Positions 1,284 through 11,025 of a DNA stretch of 64,000 nt are shown here, in pieces. The position numbers and the translations under genes are program-made. Every line of letters begins with the position of its first letter. The stretch's first letter is position 1. Location of the stretch: NCBI GenBank assembly GCA_003170825.1, contig PMYL01000019.1, forward strand, positions 114,717 to 178,716, given 5' to 3'. The notes below the pieces were generated by a model that worked only from the letters and a program-made list of their open reading frames with translations, was not told where the DNA came from and did no database searches. This stretch comes from Acidobacteriaceae bacterium. Lineage in GTDB: Bacteria; Acidobacteriota; Terriglobia; Terriglobales; Acidobacteriaceae.

Positions 1284-1339
1284 AAGGGCGAACGTCCAAA
1301 GGATTCGCGGACGAATTCACCCATGTTCAGGTGACAAGA

Positions 1340-3136
1340 ATGTTCGTTTTGGTCTCAAACTCCATCGCCGCTGCCGGCTCGCCTACGGCTGCCGCGGCGT
1401 TCCTTGCGCTCGGCGCCCCCTCGCTGGCGCACTTGAGTCCGCTCGACATTGCAGTGATCGCCATCTACTTCGTGATGGTGATTTGGATCGGCTTCTACCT
1501 GAAGCAGAAAGCCAACACCAGCGAAGAGTTCTTTATGGCCGGGCGCGAGATGACCGCCTGGATTGCGGGTTTGAGCTTCGTCGCGGCCAACCTGGGATCG
1601 CTCGAACTAATGGGCTGGGCAGGCTCGGCCTACCAGTACGGCATTCTCGCCGCGCACTGGTACTGGGTGGGAGCTATTCCCGCCATGCTCTTTCTGGGCA
1701 TGGTGATGATGCCCTTTTACTACGTCTGCAAGACGCACTCCGTGCCCGGATATCTCAAGCTCCGCTTCGGCCAGGGAACCAGCATCGTTGCCGCCTTCTC
1801 GTTCGCCTTCATGACCGTGCTGATGAGCGGCGTAAACATGTTTGCCATGGCGGAAGTGATGAAGGTGGTGCTTGGCTGGGACATGAACTTCTCCATCATT
1901 GTCTCCTCGCTAGCCGTGGCGGCGTATGTGGCGCTGGGCGGGTTGCGTTCGGCCATCTTCAACGAGGTTTTGCAGTTCGTGCTCATTTGGGGAGGCGCGC
2001 TGCTGGTGCCGATTCTCGGCCTCATCGAGGCCGGTGGCTGGAACGGGCTCAAGGCCAAGATCGCGCACAACATCGCCACCGGCGCAATCGCTCCCGGCGA
2101 CTACACGCACCTGTGGCGCAGCATGGGCCACTTTGCCGACAACCCGATGGGCATTCACTGGACGGGCATCGTCTTCGGCCTGGGATTCGCCATCAGCTTC
2201 GGCTACTGGACCACGGACTTCCTGGTGGTGCAGCGGGTACTGGCCGCCAACAGCCTCCGTTCGGCGCGCATGGCGCCGGTGATCGGATCTTTCTTCAAAA
2301 TGGCTGTACCGTTCATCGTGATCCTGCCCGGCCTGCTGGGCCTTGTGGTGCTGCAGAATTCAGACGGCAGCCTGATGAAGCTGGTGGGCGAGAATGTGGT
2401 CGCGGCAAACCCAGGGGCGGGCTTGCACAGCTACAACGAAGTGCTGCCGCTGATGCTGGTGCGCTACTGTAGCCCCGGCCTACTGGGGCTGGGGATTACC
2501 GCGCTGATTGCCGGTTTCATGAGCGGCATGGCCGGCAACGTAAGCGCCTTTTCCGCGGTGTGGACTTACGACATCTATCAGCCCCTGATCAACAAGAAGG
2601 CGCGCGACGAGCACTACGTAGCGGTTGGGCGTTGGGCCACGATTCTCGGCGTGGTCATCTCCATCGGCGCTGCCTACCTGGTCATGAACGCCAAGGGCAT
2701 CATGGATTACGTGCAGGCGCTGTTCAGCTTCTTCATTTCACCTCTGCTCGGCGCGGTGCTGATGGGCATGTTCTGGAAGCGCGCCACCAGGGCGGGCGGC
2801 TTCTGGGGCCTGTTGATCGGCACGCTTACCTCGATCAGCTTGTGGGCCTGGGTCAAGATTGATCCATCGGCGCTGCGTTATGTGGCGATCTCTCCGGATG
2901 CCAAGGATATGGCGGAGAATATGTACCGCGCCCTCTGGTCGGTGAGCGTCACAGTGATCGTCGTCTTTGTGGTCAGTCTCTTCGGCAAGGCTCGCCCGGT
3001 GGCGGAGTTGAATGGATTGGTCTATGGGGCCACAAAACTGCCCGCGGAAGAGCCGGTGCCATTTTACAAAAACGAGTGGTTCTGGACGGCGCTGGCGATC
3101 GTACTCTTCCTTGCCCTTAACATTTACTTTTGGTAG
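1340..3136 (+). CDS. SSS-family sodium:solute symporter
   Basis: A 598-residue inner-membrane protein of the sodium:solute symporter family (SLC5-like, LeuT fold), expected to use the sodium gradient to import an organic solute. About 13-14 hydrophobic helices are readable. The conserved segments are EEFFMAGREM after helix 1, GGLRSAIFNEVLQ in the middle, and the late GFMSGMAGNVSAFSAVWTYDIY. The ATG at 1340 is chosen because AGGTGA lies 6 bp upstream; a GTG at 1331 is the alternative. It heads a run of four co-directional genes with a sugar-isomerase-fold enzyme, so a sugar or sugar-like substrate is likely. Transport class is sure; substrate is inferred. Confidence 0.9.
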   Translation: MFVLVSNSIAAAGSPTAAAAFLALGAPSLAHLSPLDIAVIAIYFVMVIWIGFYLKQKANTSEEFFMAGREMTAWIAGLSFVAANLGSLELMGWAGSAYQYGILAAHWYWVGAIPAMLFLGMVMMPFYYVCKTHSVPGYLKLRFGQGTSIVAAFSFAFMTVLMSGVNMFAMAEVMKVVLGWDMNFSIIVSSLAVAAYVALGGLRSAIFNEVLQFVLIWGGALLVPILGLIEAGGWNGLKAKIAHNIATGAIAPGDYTHLWRSMGHFADNPMGIHWTGIVFGLGFAISFGYWTTDFLVVQRVLAANSLRSARMAPVIGSFFKMAVPFIVILPGLLGLVVLQNSDGSLMKLVGENVVAANPGAGLHSYNEVLPLMLVRYCSPGLLGLGITALIAGFMSGMAGNVSAFSAVWTYDIYQPLINKKARDEHYVAVGRWATILGVVISIGAAYLVMNAKGIMDYVQALFSFFISPLLGAVLMGMFWKRATRAGGFWGLLIGTLTSISLWAWVKIDPSALRYVAISPDAKDMAENMYRALWSVSVTVIVVFVVSLFGKARPVAELNGLVYGATKLPAEEPVPFYKNEWFWTALAIVLFLALNIYFW

Positions 3137-3394: not shown

Positions 3395-4822
3395 ATGACA
3401 GCGCAACGAACAATGACTTTTGGGATTGTGGTGGGCAACCGCGGGTTTTTCCCCGACCATTTGGCCAAGACCGGCCGCGAGGAGATGATTGCGGCAGTCG
3501 AAGCGGCAGGCGCGAAGGCGCTGGTCCTCGGTCCTGAGGATTCAAAGCACGGCGCGGTGGAAACCTTTGCAGAGGCAACCCGCTGTGCGGAGTTCTTCAA
3601 GGAACATGCGGCGGAGATCGACGGGATTATTGTCACGCTGCCGAACTTTGGCGACGAGCGCGGCGTAGCCGATGCTCTGCGTCTCTCAGGGCTCAAGGTT
3701 CCGGTGCTGATCCAGGCCACGCCCGACCGCTCGGACGCCATGACCATCGCCACCCGACGCGACAGCTTCTGCGGCAAGATGAGCGCCTGTAACAACCTGA
3801 TGCAATACGGCATTCCCTACTCGCTGACCAAGCTGCACACCGAAAGCCCTGAGTCGCCCGCGTTCAAGGCCGATCTGGAGTGGTTCTCGGCGGTTTGCCG
3901 CATCGTGAAGGGGCTCAAGAATCTGCGCATCGGCGCCATCGGAGCGCGTCCGGCGGCTTTCAATACGGTCCGCTACTCGGAGCGCATTCTGGAGACCCAC
4001 GGCATCTCCGTGGAGCCCATCGATCTCTCGGAAATCTTCGGCCGCATCCAGCGCATGAAAGACACGGACGACGCCGCGCAGGCCAAGCTCGCGGCTATCA
4101 AAAACTATGTCACTACTTCCGGCATTCCCGACGAAGCGCTGCTCAAGATGGCCAAGCTGGGCGCGGTTATCGATGGCTGGATGAAGCAGACCGCCGTAAC
4201 CATCAGCGCCGTGCAGTGCTGGACTTCGCTCGAAGAGTTCTTCGGCGTGGTGCCCTGCACCATCATGAGCATGATGAGCAACGATCTGATTCCCTCGGCC
4301 TGCGAAGTGGACGTGCCCGGCACGCTCAGCATGTACATGCTCGCCCTGGCCAGCGGCACCCCCTCGGCGCTGTTGGACTGGAACAACAACTACGGCAATT
4401 ACCCCGACAAGTGCGTCTGCTTCCACTGCTCCAACCTGCCCAAGCATTTCTTCAAGGAAGTCAAGATGGACTTCCAGGAGATCATCGCGGGCACGGTGGG
4501 CAAGGAAAATACGTTTGGCACCTGCGTGGGCCGCGTGAAGGCCGGCGCCATGAGCTTTGCGCGCTACTCCACCGACGACCGCCGCGGCGTGATGCGCGGA
4601 TACACCGGCGCGGGCCGCTTCACCGACGATTCGCTGGAGACCTTCGGCGGCGCCGGCGTGGCCGAGATTCCGCAACTGCAGAAGCTGCTCAAATACATCT
4701 GCCGCGAGGGCTTCGAGCACCACGTAGCCGCCAACTTCAGCGACGTATCGAAGGCCGTGCACGAGGCCGCCGTCCGCTACCTGGGCTGGGAGAGCCACTA
4801 CCATCCGGAACTCGAGGACTAA
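3395..4822 (+). CDS. FucI/AraA-fold sugar isomerase-like protein
   Basis: A 475-residue cytoplasmic protein of the L-fucose/L-arabinose isomerase superfamily, which interconverts aldoses and ketoses with a divalent metal. Candidate metal ligands are Glu304 (in CEVDVPGTL), Asp328 (in LLDWNNNYG), His344 (in FHCSNLP) and His442/443 near the end. The 24-residue Glu-to-Asp spacing matches E. coli FucI (E337/D361), and the later His positions resemble AraA. The N-terminal half is a Rossmann-like domain (GIVVGNRGFFPDHL). It is co-directional with the symporter, so the two may import and isomerise one sugar. It is shorter than E. coli FucI, so the substrate need not be fucose. Superfamily is fairly certain; substrate unknown. 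Confidence 0.85.
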   Translation: MTAQRTMTFGIVVGNRGFFPDHLAKTGREEMIAAVEAAGAKALVLGPEDSKHGAVETFAEATRCAEFFKEHAAEIDGIIVTLPNFGDERGVADALRLSGLKVPVLIQATPDRSDAMTIATRRDSFCGKMSACNNLMQYGIPYSLTKLHTESPESPAFKADLEWFSAVCRIVKGLKNLRIGAIGARPAAFNTVRYSERILETHGISVEPIDLSEIFGRIQRMKDTDDAAQAKLAAIKNYVTTSGIPDEALLKMAKLGAVIDGWMKQTAVTISAVQCWTSLEEFFGVVPCTIMSMMSNDLIPSACEVDVPGTLSMYMLALASGTPSALLDWNNNYGNYPDKCVCFHCSNLPKHFFKEVKMDFQEIIAGTVGKENTFGTCVGRVKAGAMSFARYSTDDRRGVMRGYTGAGRFTDDSLETFGGAGVAEIPQLQKLLKYICREGFEHHVAANFSDVSKAVHEAAVRYLGWESHYHPELED

Positions 4823-4909: not shown

Positions 4910-6064
4910 ATGAACAAGAGAATCGGCAAGAGCCTGGTGGTAAACGGCGCTACGCTGGTGACGGAAGACAAGTGGAATGCGGAGCTGGACGCGAAGCACG
5001 AACAATTGGTGGAATGGCTGCGCGGCCAGGGCCTGGCGGGCATTCTCATCCGGCGCAACGAGAATGTGGCCTGGCTGACGGGCGGCGCGGTGGAGCTGCG
5101 CGTGCTCACGCCCTGCGAAACCGGCGTGGCTTCGCTGCTGGTGACCGCGGCGGGCAAACGATACTACTTCACCACCGAGAACGAAGCGCCGCGCCTCAAC
5201 GACGAGGAGTTTGGCGCGCTGGATTTTGAGCCGGTGCTGTTTCCCTGGTACGCGGACGATACTGCGGCCGCTGCGGCGCGACTGGCCGGCGGGCCACTCG
5301 GCTCGGATACGCCGGGCGCGGGCCTCACGCCGGTCAACCTCTATCCCTTGCGCGCGGCGCTCAGCGAGACGGAGATTGCGCGCTATCGTTGGCTGGGCGC
5401 GGAAACCGCGGCCGCCACGGTGGAGGCGCTCAACCAGGTAGAGCCCGGCCTGAGCGAGTACGACCTTGAGGCCATCACGGCCGCCGGCCTGTTGCGCCGA
5501 GGCATCCTGCCCTCGGTCTATCTCTTCGCGGTGGACGATCGCATCCTGAAATACAAGCACGCCGTGGCGCGGGGCAAGAGGCTCAAGCAGTACGCCATGC
5601 TGAACTTGTGTTCGAGGAAGTGGGGGCTGGCCATCTCCATCACGCGGTTCGTTCACTTCGGCGCGCTGCCGGCGGAGCTTGGGGCGCGCTTTGAAGCCGC
5701 TGCCCAGGTGAACGCGGCGCTGCTGAACGCAACCCGCGTGTGCGCCACTTCGGCTGAGCTGTTTGGCGTGGCCCAAGCGGCGTATGCGAAGCAGGGTTTT
5801 CCCGGCGAGGAGCAGTTCCATCACCAGGGCGGAGCTACCGGCTACTGGGAGCGCGAGTGGGTGGCGACGTCTGCGGGCACAGAGACCGTGGTCAACAGCC
5901 AGGCCTTTGCCTGGAACCCCAGCATCCGCGGCGGCAAGACCGAGGACACCGTTCTGCTGCGCGATGGAGTGATCGAGAACCTGACTCCGACGCCGGAGTT
6001 GCCGGTGATTGCAGCCAGCGTGCAGGGCAGCACGTACGAGGCGACTGGCGTGCTGGTGAGGTAA
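4910..6064 (+). CDS. M24 (creatinase/prolidase-fold) protein lacking most metal ligands
   Basis: A 384-residue protein with the M24 'pita-bread' layout: N-terminal creatinase-like domain (about 25-145) and C-terminal domain (about 150-360). Against aminopeptidase P the ligands align as Asp to Asn232 (MLNLC), Asp to Ser243 (ISITR), His kept (His304/305, FHHQGG), Glu to Asn336 (WNPSI) and Glu345 kept (TEDTVLL). Three of five ligands are thus replaced, so a dimetal peptidase is unlikely; creatinase shows the fold can hydrolyse C-N bonds without metal. The ATG at 4910 has AAGGA about 9 bp upstream. It follows the isomerase after a hairpin. The alignment was made by eye; the reaction is unknown. 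Confidence 0.8.
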   Translation: MNKRIGKSLVVNGATLVTEDKWNAELDAKHEQLVEWLRGQGLAGILIRRNENVAWLTGGAVELRVLTPCETGVASLLVTAAGKRYYFTTENEAPRLNDEEFGALDFEPVLFPWYADDTAAAAARLAGGPLGSDTPGAGLTPVNLYPLRAALSETEIARYRWLGAETAAATVEALNQVEPGLSEYDLEAITAAGLLRRGILPSVYLFAVDDRILKYKHAVARGKRLKQYAMLNLCSRKWGLAISITRFVHFGALPAELGARFEAAAQVNAALLNATRVCATSAELFGVAQAAYAKQGFPGEEQFHHQGGATGYWEREWVATSAGTETVVNSQAFAWNPSIRGGKTEDTVLLRDGVIENLTPTPELPVIAASVQGSTYEATGVLVR

Positions 6065-6169: not shown

Positions 6170-6433
6170 ATGGGGCAGATGGCGACGGTCAGCTCGAAGG
6201 GGCAAGTGGTGATTCCAGCCGCGCTTCGAAAAAAATTCCGGATAAAGGGTGGCACCCAGGTTGCGGTGGGTGAACGGGACGGACAGATTACGCTCACTCC
6301 CAACCCATATGACGCGATGCTCGCCTTGTGCGGGATACTGAGCGACGTGGAGGAAGACGTCGAGGCGTGGTGGATAGGGGAAAAACGCAAAGAACGTGAA
6401 CGCGAGGATGCCAAGATCGAGGAATTCCTGTGA
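6170..6433 (+). CDS. vapB: AbrB/MazE-type antitoxin (VapB)
   Basis: An 87-residue antitoxin with an N-terminal swapped-hairpin AbrB/SpoVT DNA-binding domain (ATVSSKGQVVIPAALRKKF, then a GG turn). Its acidic, helical C-terminal tail would wrap the toxin's active site. It is the first gene of a two-gene unit; its stop overlaps the toxin start as GTGA. GGAGG 9 bp upstream supports the ATG at 6170. The family is clear from the SSKGQVVIP motif; cognate toxin neutralisation is inferred from the arrangement. Confidence 0.88.
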   Translation: MGQMATVSSKGQVVIPAALRKKFRIKGGTQVAVGERDGQITLTPNPYDAMLALCGILSDVEEDVEAWWIGEKRKEREREDAKIEEFL

Positions 6434-6840
6434 AGGAATATGTACTGGACGCAAATGCGCTGGTGCGCTATTTTCGGCGAACGCCTGGATTTGCAGCTGT
6501 TGAGAATCTTTTCCAACAGGCCAAAGCAGGGCGGGCGCATTTGTCTATCTCTGTGGTGAATTTGAGTGAAGTGATTTATGTGCTTGCTCGTTATTTTGGC
6601 CAGGAACAGACCTTCCGGTATATCGAAATTTCGCGCCGTGCCGTTGAGTCCGCGGCGGTAAGCGAATCAGTGGCGATGGATACAGCGATCCTGTGCATTC
6701 GTTACAAGCTGGGTTTGGCTGACTGCTTTGCCGCTGAATTGGCGATGCGCACAGGAGCCACGCTCGTGACCGCCGACCGGGAGTACGCCAAGTTCGGCAA
6801 ACAATTGAAAATCCTGGCCCTGCCGCGGCATTCCGCATAA
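6430..6840 (+). CDS. vapC: PIN-domain toxin (VapC)
   Basis: A 136-residue PIN-domain ribonuclease of the VapC class, expected to cut tRNA or rRNA when the antitoxin is degraded. All four acidic positions are visible: Asp in YVLDANALV, Glu in NLSEVIYVLA, Asp in GLADCFAAELA and Asp in VTADREYAKF. The GTG start overlaps the antitoxin stop, indicating translational coupling. Length is normal for the family and the reading frame is intact, so the module is likely functional. Confidence 0.88.
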   Translation: MKEYVLDANALVRYFRRTPGFAAVENLFQQAKAGRAHLSISVVNLSEVIYVLARYFGQEQTFRYIEISRRAVESAAVSESVAMDTAILCIRYKLGLADCFAAELAMRTGATLVTADREYAKFGKQLKILALPRHSA

Positions 6841-7047: not shown

Positions 7048-7383
7048 ATGGACTATACATTTCTTGCCAATCTGCAACAGGAGTTCGCACTACCGGAAAA
7101 GGGAATCTTGAGTCGCGTTCTGCACAAGGACGATCACGTGAACGTCACACTATTCGGCTTCTCGGCAGGGCAGGAACTCTCCGCACATTCAGCGCCGACG
7201 CCAGCCATTCTCTACTTCCTGGAGGGAGAAGCCGAAGTCCAATTGGGAGAGGACAAGGTCAATGCCCAACCAGGCTCATTTGTCTATATGCCCCCGATGT
7301 TGCCTCATGGCATCGCCGCCAAGACCGCGCTTCGCATGCTGCTCGTTCAAATTACTCCGCCAGCAGCCGCACCACGTGGTTGA
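7048..7383 (+). CDS. Small single-domain cupin
   Basis: A 111-residue cupin with a recognisable double-stranded beta-helix: GFSAGQELSAHSAPTPAIL (motif 1), YFLEGEAEVQLGE, and PGSFVYMPPMLPHGI (motif 2). Motif 1 reads H-S-A where metal-binding cupins usually have HxH, so one ligand is missing while the motif-2 His remains. AAGGAGGGG ends 3 bp before the ATG at 7048. The last 32 bp overlap the end of ackA on the opposite strand (7352-7383). Possible roles include small-molecule sensing or isomerisation; the substrate cannot be told. Confidence 0.85.
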   Translation: MDYTFLANLQQEFALPEKGILSRVLHKDDHVNVTLFGFSAGQELSAHSAPTPAILYFLEGEAEVQLGEDKVNAQPGSFVYMPPMLPHGIAAKTALRMLLVQITPPAAAPRG

Positions 7384-8548
7384 CGATGATCAGATCCTCG
7401 GCGGGCGGAATGACGCGCACGGTGACGGGCGAGTTGCCGGCGGAGATGAGGGCTTCGCCGCGGACATTGTTGCGGGCCGGGTCGAGCACAATGCCCAGAG
7501 CGCCCAGGCCGGCGCAAATCTCGGCGCGGCTGGCGATGTCGTTTTCGCCGATGCCGCCGGTGAAGACCAGCATGTCGAGCCCATTCAACTCAGCCACATA
7601 GCTGCCGATCCAGCGGGCGATGGTCCAGGTGAACTTGTCCACCGCCAGCCGCGCCTTGGCGTTGCCTTCTTTGATGGCCTCGCGCAAGTCGCGCATGTCG
7701 TTGGAGAGATCGCTGACGCCCAACAGACCCGCCTTCTTGCTGGCCACGGTTTCCAACTGGTCGGCGGCCTCTGAAGCGCTTTTTACGGTTTCCGCAATCT
7801 TGCGCAGGATGAACAGCAGGACGCCGGGATCGATGTCGCCGGTGCGCGAGCCGCTGATGATGCCTCCCGTGGGGGTGAGGCCCATCGAGGTGGAAAGGCA
7901 CTTGCCCTTGCGGATCGCGGAGATGGAGGCGCCGTTGCCGAGATGGGCGACGATCAGCTTCTCCGGCACATTGGGCTGCAACTGATAGACGATCGATTCG
8001 TACGAGATGCCGTGCGCGCCGTAGCGCCTGACGCCCATCGCGGAATACTCCTCGGGGATGGGCATGTGCGTGACTACTTCGGGCATGGTGCGATGGAAGT
8101 AAGAGTCGAGGCAGACGAAGTTGGGAACGCCAGGGAAGAGGCGGAGGGACTCGCGCATGATGTAGACGGCGATGGGGGTGTGCAGCGGCGCGAAGGCCGT
8201 ATAGCGCTCCATCTCGTCGATCAGTTCGGGCGTAATGAGCTGATTGTCCAGTACCGTGGGTCCGCCGCAAACCATGCGATGGCCAATGGCCGCCGGAGCG
8301 GGGAAATCGCCGGAGTGGAGCGCATCGGCGACCAGCTTGAAGGCGACGGCCCGATTGGGCAGCGCCGGGTTCTGATCCACCAGCTTGTTGCCCTCGGCGT
8401 CCTTGATCCAGAACTTGCCCAGATCGGTGCCGATGCCGTCGACCGCGCCCTCGTGAAGCTTGCACCGTTCACCTTCGCCGGCTTCATAGACTGAAAACTT
8501 GATGGAAGAAGAACCGCTATTCAAAACCAATACGGGCAAAGACGCCAT
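7352..8548 (-). CDS. ackA: Acetate kinase
   Basis: A 398-residue acetate kinase converting acetyl-phosphate and ADP to acetate and ATP in the cytoplasm. Signature segments are VLVLNSGSSSIKFSVYE at the N-terminus, DSYFHRTMPEV, RRYGAHGISY, AHLGNGASISAI, TPTGGIISGSRTGDIDPG and VFTGGIGEND near the end. The start at 8548 is chosen because the protein then begins directly with the conserved first strand; the frame stays open for 40 more codons upstream without family similarity. It lies downstream of phosphoketolase on the same strand, whose product it uses. Its 3' end overlaps the cupin gene tail to tail. Confidence 0.96.
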   Translation of the reverse strand: MASLPVLVLNSGSSSIKFSVYEAGEGERCKLHEGAVDGIGTDLGKFWIKDAEGNKLVDQNPALPNRAVAFKLVADALHSGDFPAPAAIGHRMVCGGPTVLDNQLITPELIDEMERYTAFAPLHTPIAVYIMRESLRLFPGVPNFVCLDSYFHRTMPEVVTHMPIPEEYSAMGVRRYGAHGISYESIVYQLQPNVPEKLIVAHLGNGASISAIRKGKCLSTSMGLTPTGGIISGSRTGDIDPGVLLFILRKIAETVKSASEAADQLETVASKKAGLLGVSDLSNDMRDLREAIKEGNAKARLAVDKFTWTIARWIGSYVAELNGLDMLVFTGGIGENDIASRAEICAGLGALGIVLDPARNNVRGEALISAGNSPVTVRVIPPAEDLIIVNHVVRLLAE

Positions 8549-8604
8549 GAATGAAAACCTCGAAGTTGGGGCTGAACGAGTCAGCGGGCTGGTGGGGTAA
8601 GCGA

Positions 8605-8651
8605 AGTTAGCAAGTTGGCGGGTTAGCGAGTTAGCAAGTTGGCGGGTTAGC
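8605..8651. repeat. Tandem 24-bp repeat at the xfp 3' end
   Basis: Two adjacent copies of a 24-bp unit (8605-8628, and 8629-8651 lacking the final base) are built from octamers such as GTTAGCAA and GTTGGCGG. The second copy overlaps the xfp stop codon. The same octamers recur near 15.4 kb. Confidence 0.75.
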
Positions 8652-11025
8652 TTTGGGACCAGCGCCAATTTTTTATTTCGGGCAGGTCGTCGCCGTTTTC
8701 GGCTACATAGAGGCGATGGCGCTGGATGGCCTCAGAGTACCACTGCTGCGCCGCGTCGGCTTGCGCAGCCAGCCGCGGCACGCGCCGGATGGCGTCGAGA
8801 GTCAGTTGGAACCGGTCGATGTTGTTGAGCACGCACATATCGAAGGGCGTGGTCGTGGTGCCCTCTTCCTTGTAGCCGCGCACGTGGATGTTGTCGTGAT
8901 TGTGCCGCCGGTAAGTGAGGCGGTGAATGAGCCATGGATAGCCGTGGAAGGCGAAGACGACCGGGATGCCGACGGGGAAGAGCAGATCGAACTCCTCGTC
9001 CGGCAACCCATGCGGATGCTCGGATGTGGGCTGCAATGCCATCAGGTCCACCACGTTGACCACACGGATGCGCAGATCGGGCACCTTGGCGCGCAGCAGG
9101 CAAACGGCGGCCAGAGTCTCCAGCGTGGGCACATCGCCGCAGCAGGCCATCACCACGTCGGGGCCACCCTCGTCATTCGAGGCCCATTTCCAAACGCCAA
9201 GCCCGGTGGTGCAGTGAGCGACGGCCTCGTCAATGGTGAGCCACTGCGGAGCCGGCTGCTTGCCCGCTACGATCAGGTTGATGTAATTCTTGCTGCGCAG
9301 GCAGTGGTCGGAGACCGAGAGCAGGGTATTGGCGTCCGGCGTCAGATAGATGCGCACCACGTCGGCTTTCTTGTTCATCAGGTGATCGATGAAGCCGGGG
9401 TCCTGGTGGCTGAAGCCGTTGTGGTCCTGCCGCCACACCAGCGAACTGAGCAGGTAGTTGAGCGAGGCGATGGGTTTGCGCCAGGGAATCTGCCGCGAGA
9501 CCTTCAACCACTTGGCATGCTGGTTCGCCATCGAGTCGATGATGTGGATGAAGGCCTCATAGCAGTTGAAGAAGCCGTGGCGGCCGGTGAGCAGGTACCC
9601 CTCCAGCCAACCCTGGCACATGTGCTCGCTCAGCACCTCCATCACGCGTCCGGTTTCTGACAGGTTCTCGTCCACCGGCAGCGTCTCGGCCATCCAGGCC
9701 TTGCCGGTTCCGGTGATCACGTCCTGGAGGCGGTTGGAGGCCGTCTCATCGGGGCCGAAGACTCGGAAATTCTTTTGGTCCTGGTTTGCTTCCATGACCG
9801 CGTGAAGCAGTTGGCCCAGAATGCGCGTGGATTCTACGTCGGTCTGGCCGCGGCCTTCGATCTTAACCGCGAAGTCGCGGAAGTTGGGCACCTTGAGCGG
9901 TTGCAGCAACAGGCCGCCGTTGGCGTGGGCGTTCATTCCCATGCGCAACCGGCCCTTGGGCGCGATATCCGCCAGATCCTCGCGGAAACGGCCCTTCTCG
10001 TCGAAGAGTTCCTCGGGCTTATAGCTGCGCATCCACTCATCGAGCTGGCGCAGGTGCTCCGGTTTCTCGAAAATCTGGTCCAGAGGAACCTGGTGGGCTC
10101 GCCAGGTGTTCTCCACCGGCTTGCCGTCAACGAATTTGGGTCCGGTCCAGCCTTTGGGCGTGCGCATGATCAGCATCGGCCAAGCCGGGCGCGCCGTCGA
10201 GCCATCTTCACGGGCTGCCTTTTGAATGGCGGCGATGCGGTCCAGCATGGTGTCGAAGACCGCCGCGGCCTGCTGGTGCATCACGGCTGGGTCGTCGCCT
10301 TCCAGCGTGAAGGGCTCATAGCCGTAGCCGCGCATCAGGCTCTCCAACTCGGCATGGGGAATGCGCGCCAGGATGGTGGGGTTGGCGATCTTGTAGCCGT
10401 TCAGGTGGAGAATGGGCAGCACCGCGCCGTCGGTTAAGGGATTGAGAAACTTGTTGGAGTGCCAGCTTGTGGCCAGGGGGCCGGTTTCGGCCTCGCCATC
10501 GCCGACGACGCAGGCCACGATGAGGTTGGGATTGTCAAAGGCAGCGCCGTAAGCGTGCACCAGCGAATAGCCCAGTTCGCCGCCCTCGTGGATGGAGCCC
10601 GGCGTCTCCGGGGCCACGTGGCTGGGAATGCCGTAGGGCCAACTGAACTGGCGGAAGAGGCGCTTGATGCCGTCCTTGTTCTGCTCGATGTGAGGGTAGA
10701 TCTCGCTGTACGAACCCTCCAGATAGGTGTTGGCCACCAGGCCCGGCCCGCCGTGCCCAGGGCCGATGATGTACAGCATGTCCAGGCCGCGCTCGCGGAT
10801 CAGGCGGTTCCAGTGCACATAGAGGAAGTTGAGCCCCGGCGTGGTGCCCCAGTGGCCCAGCAGACGCGGCTTCACGTCGTCCAGGGTGAGCGGGCGCTCC
10901 AGCAGCGGATTATCTTTCAGGTAGATCTGGCCGACGGAAAGATAGTTGGCTGCGCGCCAGTAGGCGTCCATTTTGGCCAACAGTTCCGGGCTAAGGGGGC
11001 TATTGCTCGCTGTTTCTTCGCTCAC
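8647..11025 (-). CDS. xfp: Xylulose-5-P/fructose-6-P phosphoketolase
   Basis: A 792-residue thiamine-diphosphate phosphoketolase that splits xylulose 5-phosphate (and often fructose 6-phosphate) with phosphate into acetyl-phosphate plus glyceraldehyde 3-P or erythrose 4-P. Visible signatures are [40 protein letters not shown] (cofactor binding), TPKGWTGPK and [13 protein letters not shown]. Length is typical. The start is a GTG at 11025 with GAGGTG a few bases upstream. With ackA just downstream it forms a short ATP-yielding branch to acetate. The 98-bp gap between them holds a tandem repeat but no obvious promoter, so co-transcription is likely. Confidence 0.96.

Follow-up and report, generated by a model that had tools for sequence, protein, structure and literature searches.

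The window, as we call the whole stretch of 64,000 nucleotides analyzed here, holds an open reading frame at 4910–6064 (+), with its ATG at 4910 and its stop at 6064, which encodes a protein of 384 amino acids, P0001. Two genes on the same strand precede it, an SSS-family sodium:solute symporter (1331–3136, +), the first gene of a probable operon, and a Fucose_iso_C isomerase (3395–4822, +) 87 bp upstream of the M24-like gene, both named from Pfam and NCBIfam scans; the gene order is symporter–isomerase–M24. Downstream, and facing the operon, lie an acetate/propionate family kinase (acetate kinase; 7352–8668, −; open reading frame as listed) and a phosphoketolase (8647–11025, −). A search of 43 related loci found the isomerase in 20 and the phosphoketolase near the M24-like gene in 11, a recurrence that suggests a pentose route via xylulose 5-phosphate.

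Relatives of the isomerase occur in the Chloroflexota loci L122 (1310–2884), L133 (5002–6423) and L186 (5422–6882), there together with AraB and an AraD-like aldolase. Its sole NCBIfam match, sulfoquinovose isomerase, lies far under the cut-off, and it is possibly an alternative L-arabinose isomerase. Directly 3′ of the M24-like gene (6170–6840, +), a short AbrB-like open reading frame, recognized by eye, precedes the gene of a PIN-domain protein (PF01850, 61 bits), and the two are a probable toxin–antitoxin pair.

Fold and metal site of P0001

The gene for P0001 is real and not an artefact. Pfam assigns its product to Peptidase_M24 (PF00557; 28.2 bits, cut-off 23) and Creatinase_N (24.8, cut-off 22), with no match to PF01263, the GalM domain, and no NCBIfam model matched at E 0.001. 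An AlphaFold2 model built from 56 aligned sequences (mean pLDDT 95.6, pTM 0.93) clearly predicts an M24 fold along the entire length of the protein. Both the fold and the completeness of the protein had been called by a reading of the letters alone (the sequence-only reading), and the Pfam scores and the model bear this out. The solved structures that VIA-align matched to the model include X. campestris prolidase (5cde; Z 32.9, rmsd 2.5, 341 aligned), ectoine hydrolase (6twk; Z 31.2), creatinase (1chm; Z 30.9), DddP (Z 30.3), P. furiosus prolidase (1pv9; Z 28.8) and Spt16 domains (Z 28.6), a ranking of model matches that picks no function. Of the features that mark an M24 enzyme, P0001 has the pita-bread fold and the PF00557 match but lacks the five-ligand set Asp, Asp, His, Glu, Glu.

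The metal site was mapped by profile alignments to the P. furiosus, P. horikoshii and T. maritima prolidases. We take the metal ligands of the P. furiosus enzyme to be D209, D220, H284, E313 and E327; counting along the printed alignment gave the same numbers for D209, D220 and H284. The profile alignments match the first metal Asp with Asn232 (5603–5605, +), the second with Ser243 (5636–5638, +), the metal His with Gly308, and the last Glu (P. furiosus Glu327) with Glu345 (5942–5944, +). Asn336 (5915–5917, +; within AWNPS) probably occupies the first metal-Glu position, as it stands at the Glu of EPG in the T. maritima alignment and also by motif (NPS in P0001 versus EPG in prolidase), although both Pyrococcus alignments put the EPG Glu inside an insertion. 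In the P. furiosus alignment, His304 and His305 of the HHQGG motif (residues 304–308; 5819–5833, +) stand at H280, which is not a ligand, and at S281, and are thus the His four residues ahead of the ligand position plus its neighbor. Three canonical M24 proteins from the same phylum carry HSTGHG where the M24-like family has HHQGG, with Asp at column 243 and His at columns 308 and 315; the automatic alignment leaves columns 232 and 336 unresolved for these three. Outside the ligand set, His217 (5558–5560, +) aligns with P. furiosus prolidase His192, and Arg315 (5852–5854, +) replaces the second active-site His (P. furiosus His291).

By these alignments, four of the five metal ligands are replaced in P0001 (Asn232, Ser243, Gly308 and Asn336 for Asp, Asp, His and Glu), and only Glu345 is kept. 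The sequence-only reading had proposed the loss of three, with His304/305 and Glu345 retained. Ligand loss as such stands, together with the changes of Asp to Asn232 and Ser243, seen in both Pyrococcus alignments, and the retention of Glu345; the change of Glu to Asn336 holds by motif and by the T. maritima alignment. The number must be raised to four because ligand H284 stands at Gly308, not at His304/305, and the prolidase alignments together with the same-phylum canonical proteins rule out these two histidines as metal ligands of the normal site. The further claim that the normal dimetal center is gone is supported, and the loss is shared by bacterial and haloarchaeal homologues.

Across the family, the 56 sequences of alignment A3 are invariant at Trp55, Glu92, Trp113, His217, Arg246, His304, His305, Gln306, Gly308, Tyr312, Arg315 and Glu345. 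Because the source loci of A3 were picked by the motif A[WF]NP..G.K, the invariance of Asn336 in it is a product of selection. We therefore cite for Asn336 three sets assembled free of the motif (20 sequences from Chloroflexota, 23 from Acidobacteriota and 8 from plasmid loci, with no letters in the later columns for one plasmid sequence), in which it is found in 49/50, alongside Gly308 (50/50), Glu345 (50/50), His217 (50/51), His304 (47/50), His305 (49/50) and Arg315 (49/50). Positions 232 and 243 are variable: the former is N32/V21/A3 of 56 in A3 and V28/N14/T5/S1/A1/H1 of 50 in the motif-free sets, the latter S37/A18/C1 of 56 and S24/A19/N7 of 50, and neither is Asp or Glu in any sequence of A3 (56) or of the motif-free sets (50). 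Conservation of an Asn/Ser/Asn set, the check suggested at the outset, thus holds for Asn336, while Asn232 and Ser243 are not kept as such. The near-fixation of Gly308, Asn336 and Glu345 in bacteria and archaea indicates an old loss, and the conserved pattern in homologues rules out chance or decay as its source.

One member, L046, deviates at several of the conserved positions. On a 4775 bp contig of one Acidobacteriaceae MAG (L017/L084), the gene copy lies in pieces in different frames, one with an internal TGA.

Sugar genes around the family

Several arrangements tie members of the family to aldose pathways. Among Chloroflexota, L122 reads LacI–isomerase–M24–AraB–aldolase (class II, AraD-like), L133 has the isomerase farther off, followed by GH42–M24–AraB–aldolase, and L186 reads AraB–aldolase–isomerase–M24. 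M24–GalT occurs on two contigs from different phyla (L087 and L194). The gene adjoins GalK in L033 and L193 and, by coordinates, in G398 and G513; L104 and L105 have M24–DUF5107–SSS–GalK, and L085 the same with one extra gene between. GH42 adjoins the M24-like gene in some loci, Thermus has XylA–XylB–M24, and in haloarchaea the gene sits in arabinofuranosidase and sugar-ABC loci. As to a context of the creatinase or ectoine-hydrolase type, every neighbor that could be identified was either a sugar gene or an unrelated one.

A labeled sugar-family gene lies within 300 bp in 36/96 loci outside Acidobacteriaceae and in 24/33 inside; 37/96 and 5/33, respectively, have no labeled neighbor within 5 kb or up to the locus end, many loci being short enough that their neighbors are visible only in part. 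In three of those 37 (L049, L052 and L053) the annotation of the locus itself names sugar genes, which shows the labels to be incomplete. Outside Acidobacteriaceae, labeled sugar genes make up 51/149 genes at 300 bp or less and 6/87 at 7.5 kb or more, an enrichment owed in part to the choice of these families from among recurrent neighbors, a fault that the genome-level tests below do not share. The sugar context is thus strong for some members of the family and uninformative for others.

Other neighbors have no evident place in sugar use. An SMC-like ATPase, unrelated to sugars, lies downstream of the M24-like gene in L112, L113, L116, L119, L125 and L134 (only the L119 copy was put through the Pfam scan), and Chloroflexota loci also show Rce1-like, AMP-binding, PQQ, nucleotidyltransferase and beta-eliminating lyase proteins. 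NuoF-like, GAPDH, carboxyl transferase and aldehyde dehydrogenase proteins and an NTP transferase/radical SAM pair do not fit either. A DUF6807 protein (PF14100), possibly linked, is encoded directly upstream in L035, L103 and L117, and some plasmid loci have Gfo/Idh and GMC oxidoreductase neighbors.

One recurrent partner bears on function. A DUF5107 protein of about 325 aa is encoded within 300 bp of the M24-like gene in 11/96 loci. The DUF5107 profile matches aldose 1-epimerases weakly (E 9.5e-5), and two His and one Glu are invariant in 10/10 sequences of alignment A4 (L105:11199–12146 and nine relatives), as they are in aldose 1-epimerases. The protein thus looks like a divergent aldose 1-epimerase. 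PF01263 does not detect DUF5107 proteins (the L085 copy has DUF5107 only in Pfam, and those of G356 and G361 were likewise missed by PF01263), and no NCBIfam model matched the L105 copy. Because PF01263 is blind to DUF5107, an epimerase may be present in some genomes scored as having none, and part of the apparent replacement of GalM may be owed to DUF5107.

Co-occurrence with sugar kinases and with GalM

Mutarotases accelerate the anomer exchange needed by single-anomer enzymes, hence their place in sugar pathways (PMC5902678). If the M24-like protein were a mutarotase, its gene would be expected together with sugar kinases and in genomes where GalM (PF01263) is missing. Gene context prompted the idea before any search for PF01263 was made, and the conditioning on kinases was our own choice.

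The gene co-occurs with kinases. AraB is found in 11/32 Chloroflexota genomes with the M24-like gene and in 8/169 others (p 1e-5), and GalK in 20/24 versus 95/273 Acidobacteriota genomes (p 4e-6) and in 26/32 versus 90/169 Chloroflexota genomes (p 0.003), p-values that, like all those below, ignore phylogeny beyond the genus step and come from genomes that are not independent. GalM likewise accompanies GalK in Chloroflexota (49/64 genomes with PF01263 versus 67/137 without, p 2e-4), and no association was seen there between PF01263 and AraB (7/64 versus 12/137, p 0.6). The AraB link is mostly genome-wide and not local: only 2/11 AraB-bearing genomes with the M24-like gene hold it within 3 kb of AraB, and only 1/6 AraB-bearing genomes with PF01263 and no M24-like gene hold the epimerase within 5 kb of AraB.

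Among kinase-bearing genomes, GalM tends to be absent where the M24-like gene is present. PF01263 was detected in 1/11 AraB-bearing Chloroflexota with the gene versus 6/8 without (p 0.006), in 6/26 versus 43/90 GalK-bearing Chloroflexota (p 0.026), and in 6/20 versus 77/95 GalK-bearing Acidobacteriota (p 1.7e-5). The AraB result keeps p 0.013 when G539 is left out (1/19 AraB matches, under the family cut-off), collapsing five look-alike Chloroflexota genomes gives p 0.04, and omission of three Acidobacteriota genomes with the DUF5107 arrangement gives p 2.7e-4. By genus majority, the GalK-bearing Acidobacteriota stand at 5/12 versus 39/50 (p 0.029). Unconditioned on kinases, the difference persists in Acidobacteriota (6/24 versus 134/273, p 0.03), and in Chloroflexota the anticorrelation is not significant (7/32 versus 57/169, p 0.22).

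The complementarity is partial. Neither the M24-like gene nor PF01263 was found in 47/116 GalK-bearing Chloroflexota, PF01263 matches twice in the genome from which the window comes, once next to its GalK, and in one operon M24 and GalT are accompanied by a PF01263 fragment. Two control genomes, those of Thermus composti and Haloferax volcanii, gave matches to GalK and none to PF01263.

A proposed role in aldose use

Given the ligand loss and the frequent sugar-gene neighbors for arabinose, galactose and xylose, P0001 is probably a sugar enzyme mislabeled as a peptidase. That it is a non-peptidase with a role in aldose catabolism is, in our judgment, very likely, and the gene context and genome-level tests point to an aldose-related, probably isomerase-type (mutarotase-like) role, while the hydrolase or lyase first guessed from sequence keeps a lesser probability. 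We propose that the protein is an M24-fold enzyme of aldose use that has lost its metal site and is most likely a mutarotase, a reading to which, taken whole, we give a probability of about 0.38. The mutarotase assignment taken by itself is tentative. More tentative still is the broad form of the proposal, in which a metal-free M24-fold aldose mutarotase, its dimetal site emptied for a free sugar, takes the place of GalM across many bacteria and perhaps haloarchaea.

In the mechanism that we envisage, an old and widespread M24-fold family lost its dimetal center and was recruited to aldose catabolism, the ligands being swapped mostly for small or uncharged residues (N/V/A/T, S/A/N, Gly and Asn). 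Peptidase activity would have been lost in P0001, and metal would be absent from it. A conserved polar set (His217, Arg246, His304, His305, Gln306, Tyr312, Arg315, Asn336, Lys343, Glu345 and Asp346) is predicted to line the old metal space, with Trp55, Glu92, Arg95, Glu99 and Trp113 of the N-terminal domain contributing to the same pocket. A free aldose could bind in this vacated pocket, where acid–base catalysis, by residues whose assignment as acid and base is provisional, would most likely open and reclose the ring. The anomer so formed would be supplied to the next enzyme, an isomerase or a sugar kinase. Such a reaction would be that of an aldose 1-epimerase on a fold other than that of GalM.

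Comparison with known enzymes places P0001 in this light. It has the whole-length fold of the prolidases of P. furiosus and X. campestris (M24B), along with His217/His192 and Glu345/Glu327, and differs from them in the four replaced ligands, in Arg315 for the second active-site His, and in coming from a family whose genes often neighbor those for sugar use. Creatinase and ectoine hydrolase (EutD/DoeA), at 12–17% identity, likewise have the M24 fold in non-peptidase enzymes, as does the DMSP lyase DddP, which binds metal. GalM, with the same function as we propose here, has a fold other than M24.

The nearest competing explanation keeps catalysis but changes the reaction. A hydrolase (or lyase) resembling creatinase or ectoine hydrolase could act on a lactone, a glycosylamine or another conjugate derived from a sugar in the course of aldose use, His217 and Glu345 serving as its acid and base. 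Those two non-peptidase M24 enzymes are among the good structural matches (Z 30.9 and 31.2), the sugar gene context fits, and where an operon already encodes a GalM-like protein, as some do, the M24-like protein could serve a different reaction. Prolidases match equally well, however (Z up to 32.9), the partners GalK, GalT, AraB and XylB belong to phosphorylation pathways, which need no lactonase, and the PF01263 complementarity in kinase-bearing genomes would be unexpected for a hydrolase. We regard this explanation as somewhat unlikely; its lactonase form, to which the Gfo/Idh and GMC oxidoreductase neighbors might point, we rank lower, given that the partner genes include those for kinases and GalT. 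Loss of catalysis altogether, leaving a sugar-binding regulator or scaffold, is unlikely. It would accord with the loss of four ligands and with the match to the Spt16 domains (Z 28.6), and an EBP1 homologue is described as an M24 pseudoenzyme that is no peptidase (PMC3888471). Against it, about a dozen polar residues are near-fixed in bacteria and archaea, which is more enzyme-like, and several loci already have labeled LacI or ROK regulators. Spt16 and EBP1 share with P0001 an M24 fold with no metal site; the M24-like family differs from them in being prokaryotic, often adjoining sugar genes and strongly conserving many polar residues.

Metal could also have moved within the protein. His304, His305, His217 and Glu345, conserved in 47/50, 49/50, 50/51 and 50/50 sequences, might form a relocated, probably mononuclear site, but the sequence gives no sign that the four residues reach one metal, and we hold this to be distinctly improbable. 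Least credible by far is an ordinary prolidase or aminopeptidase with misaligned ligands, or a decaying pseudogene. The public label for the family is M24 family metallopeptidase in 8/8 plasmid regions examined, with a proteolysis GO term in 4/8, but the profile alignments and the same-phylum canonical proteins fix the positions expected of the ligands and show them missing there, in a pattern kept in two domains of life; for P0001 the metallopeptidase label is doubtful.

Were the mutarotase proposal correct, the label 'peptidase' would hide a galactose, arabinose or xylose step in several phyla, perhaps including haloarchaea, and some of the genomes concerned are ones where no canonical aldose epimerase was detected. 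The M24 fold would also gain a new type of reaction, with a vacated metal site turned into a pocket for an organic substrate, and pathway reconstructions and peptidase counts in such genomes would change. A literature search of titles and abstract openings gave, among the matches listed, nothing on an M24-like family devoid of its metal site, and the passages searched in PMC8551123, PMC3102087 and PMC8579813 contained nothing relevant to the family. The words 'metallopeptidase M24' do occur in one genome paper among those matches (PMC2405808).

The gene is present in 24/297 sampled Acidobacteriota genomes, in 32/201 Chloroflexota genomes and in 37 plasmid records, including those of Pantoea, Thermus, haloarchaea and cyanobacteria; the names of the two phyla are taken here from titles of related contigs. 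Viral spread was considered and rejected, as 0 of 26 pattern matches in viral contigs were confirmed as relatives. A contig scan by motif found at least 588 relatives, and the best 80 of these, which were retained, include members from Armatimonadetes, Ignavibacteria, Calditrichota, Neomarinimicrobiota, Bacteroidetes, Nitrospirota and Desulfobacterales.
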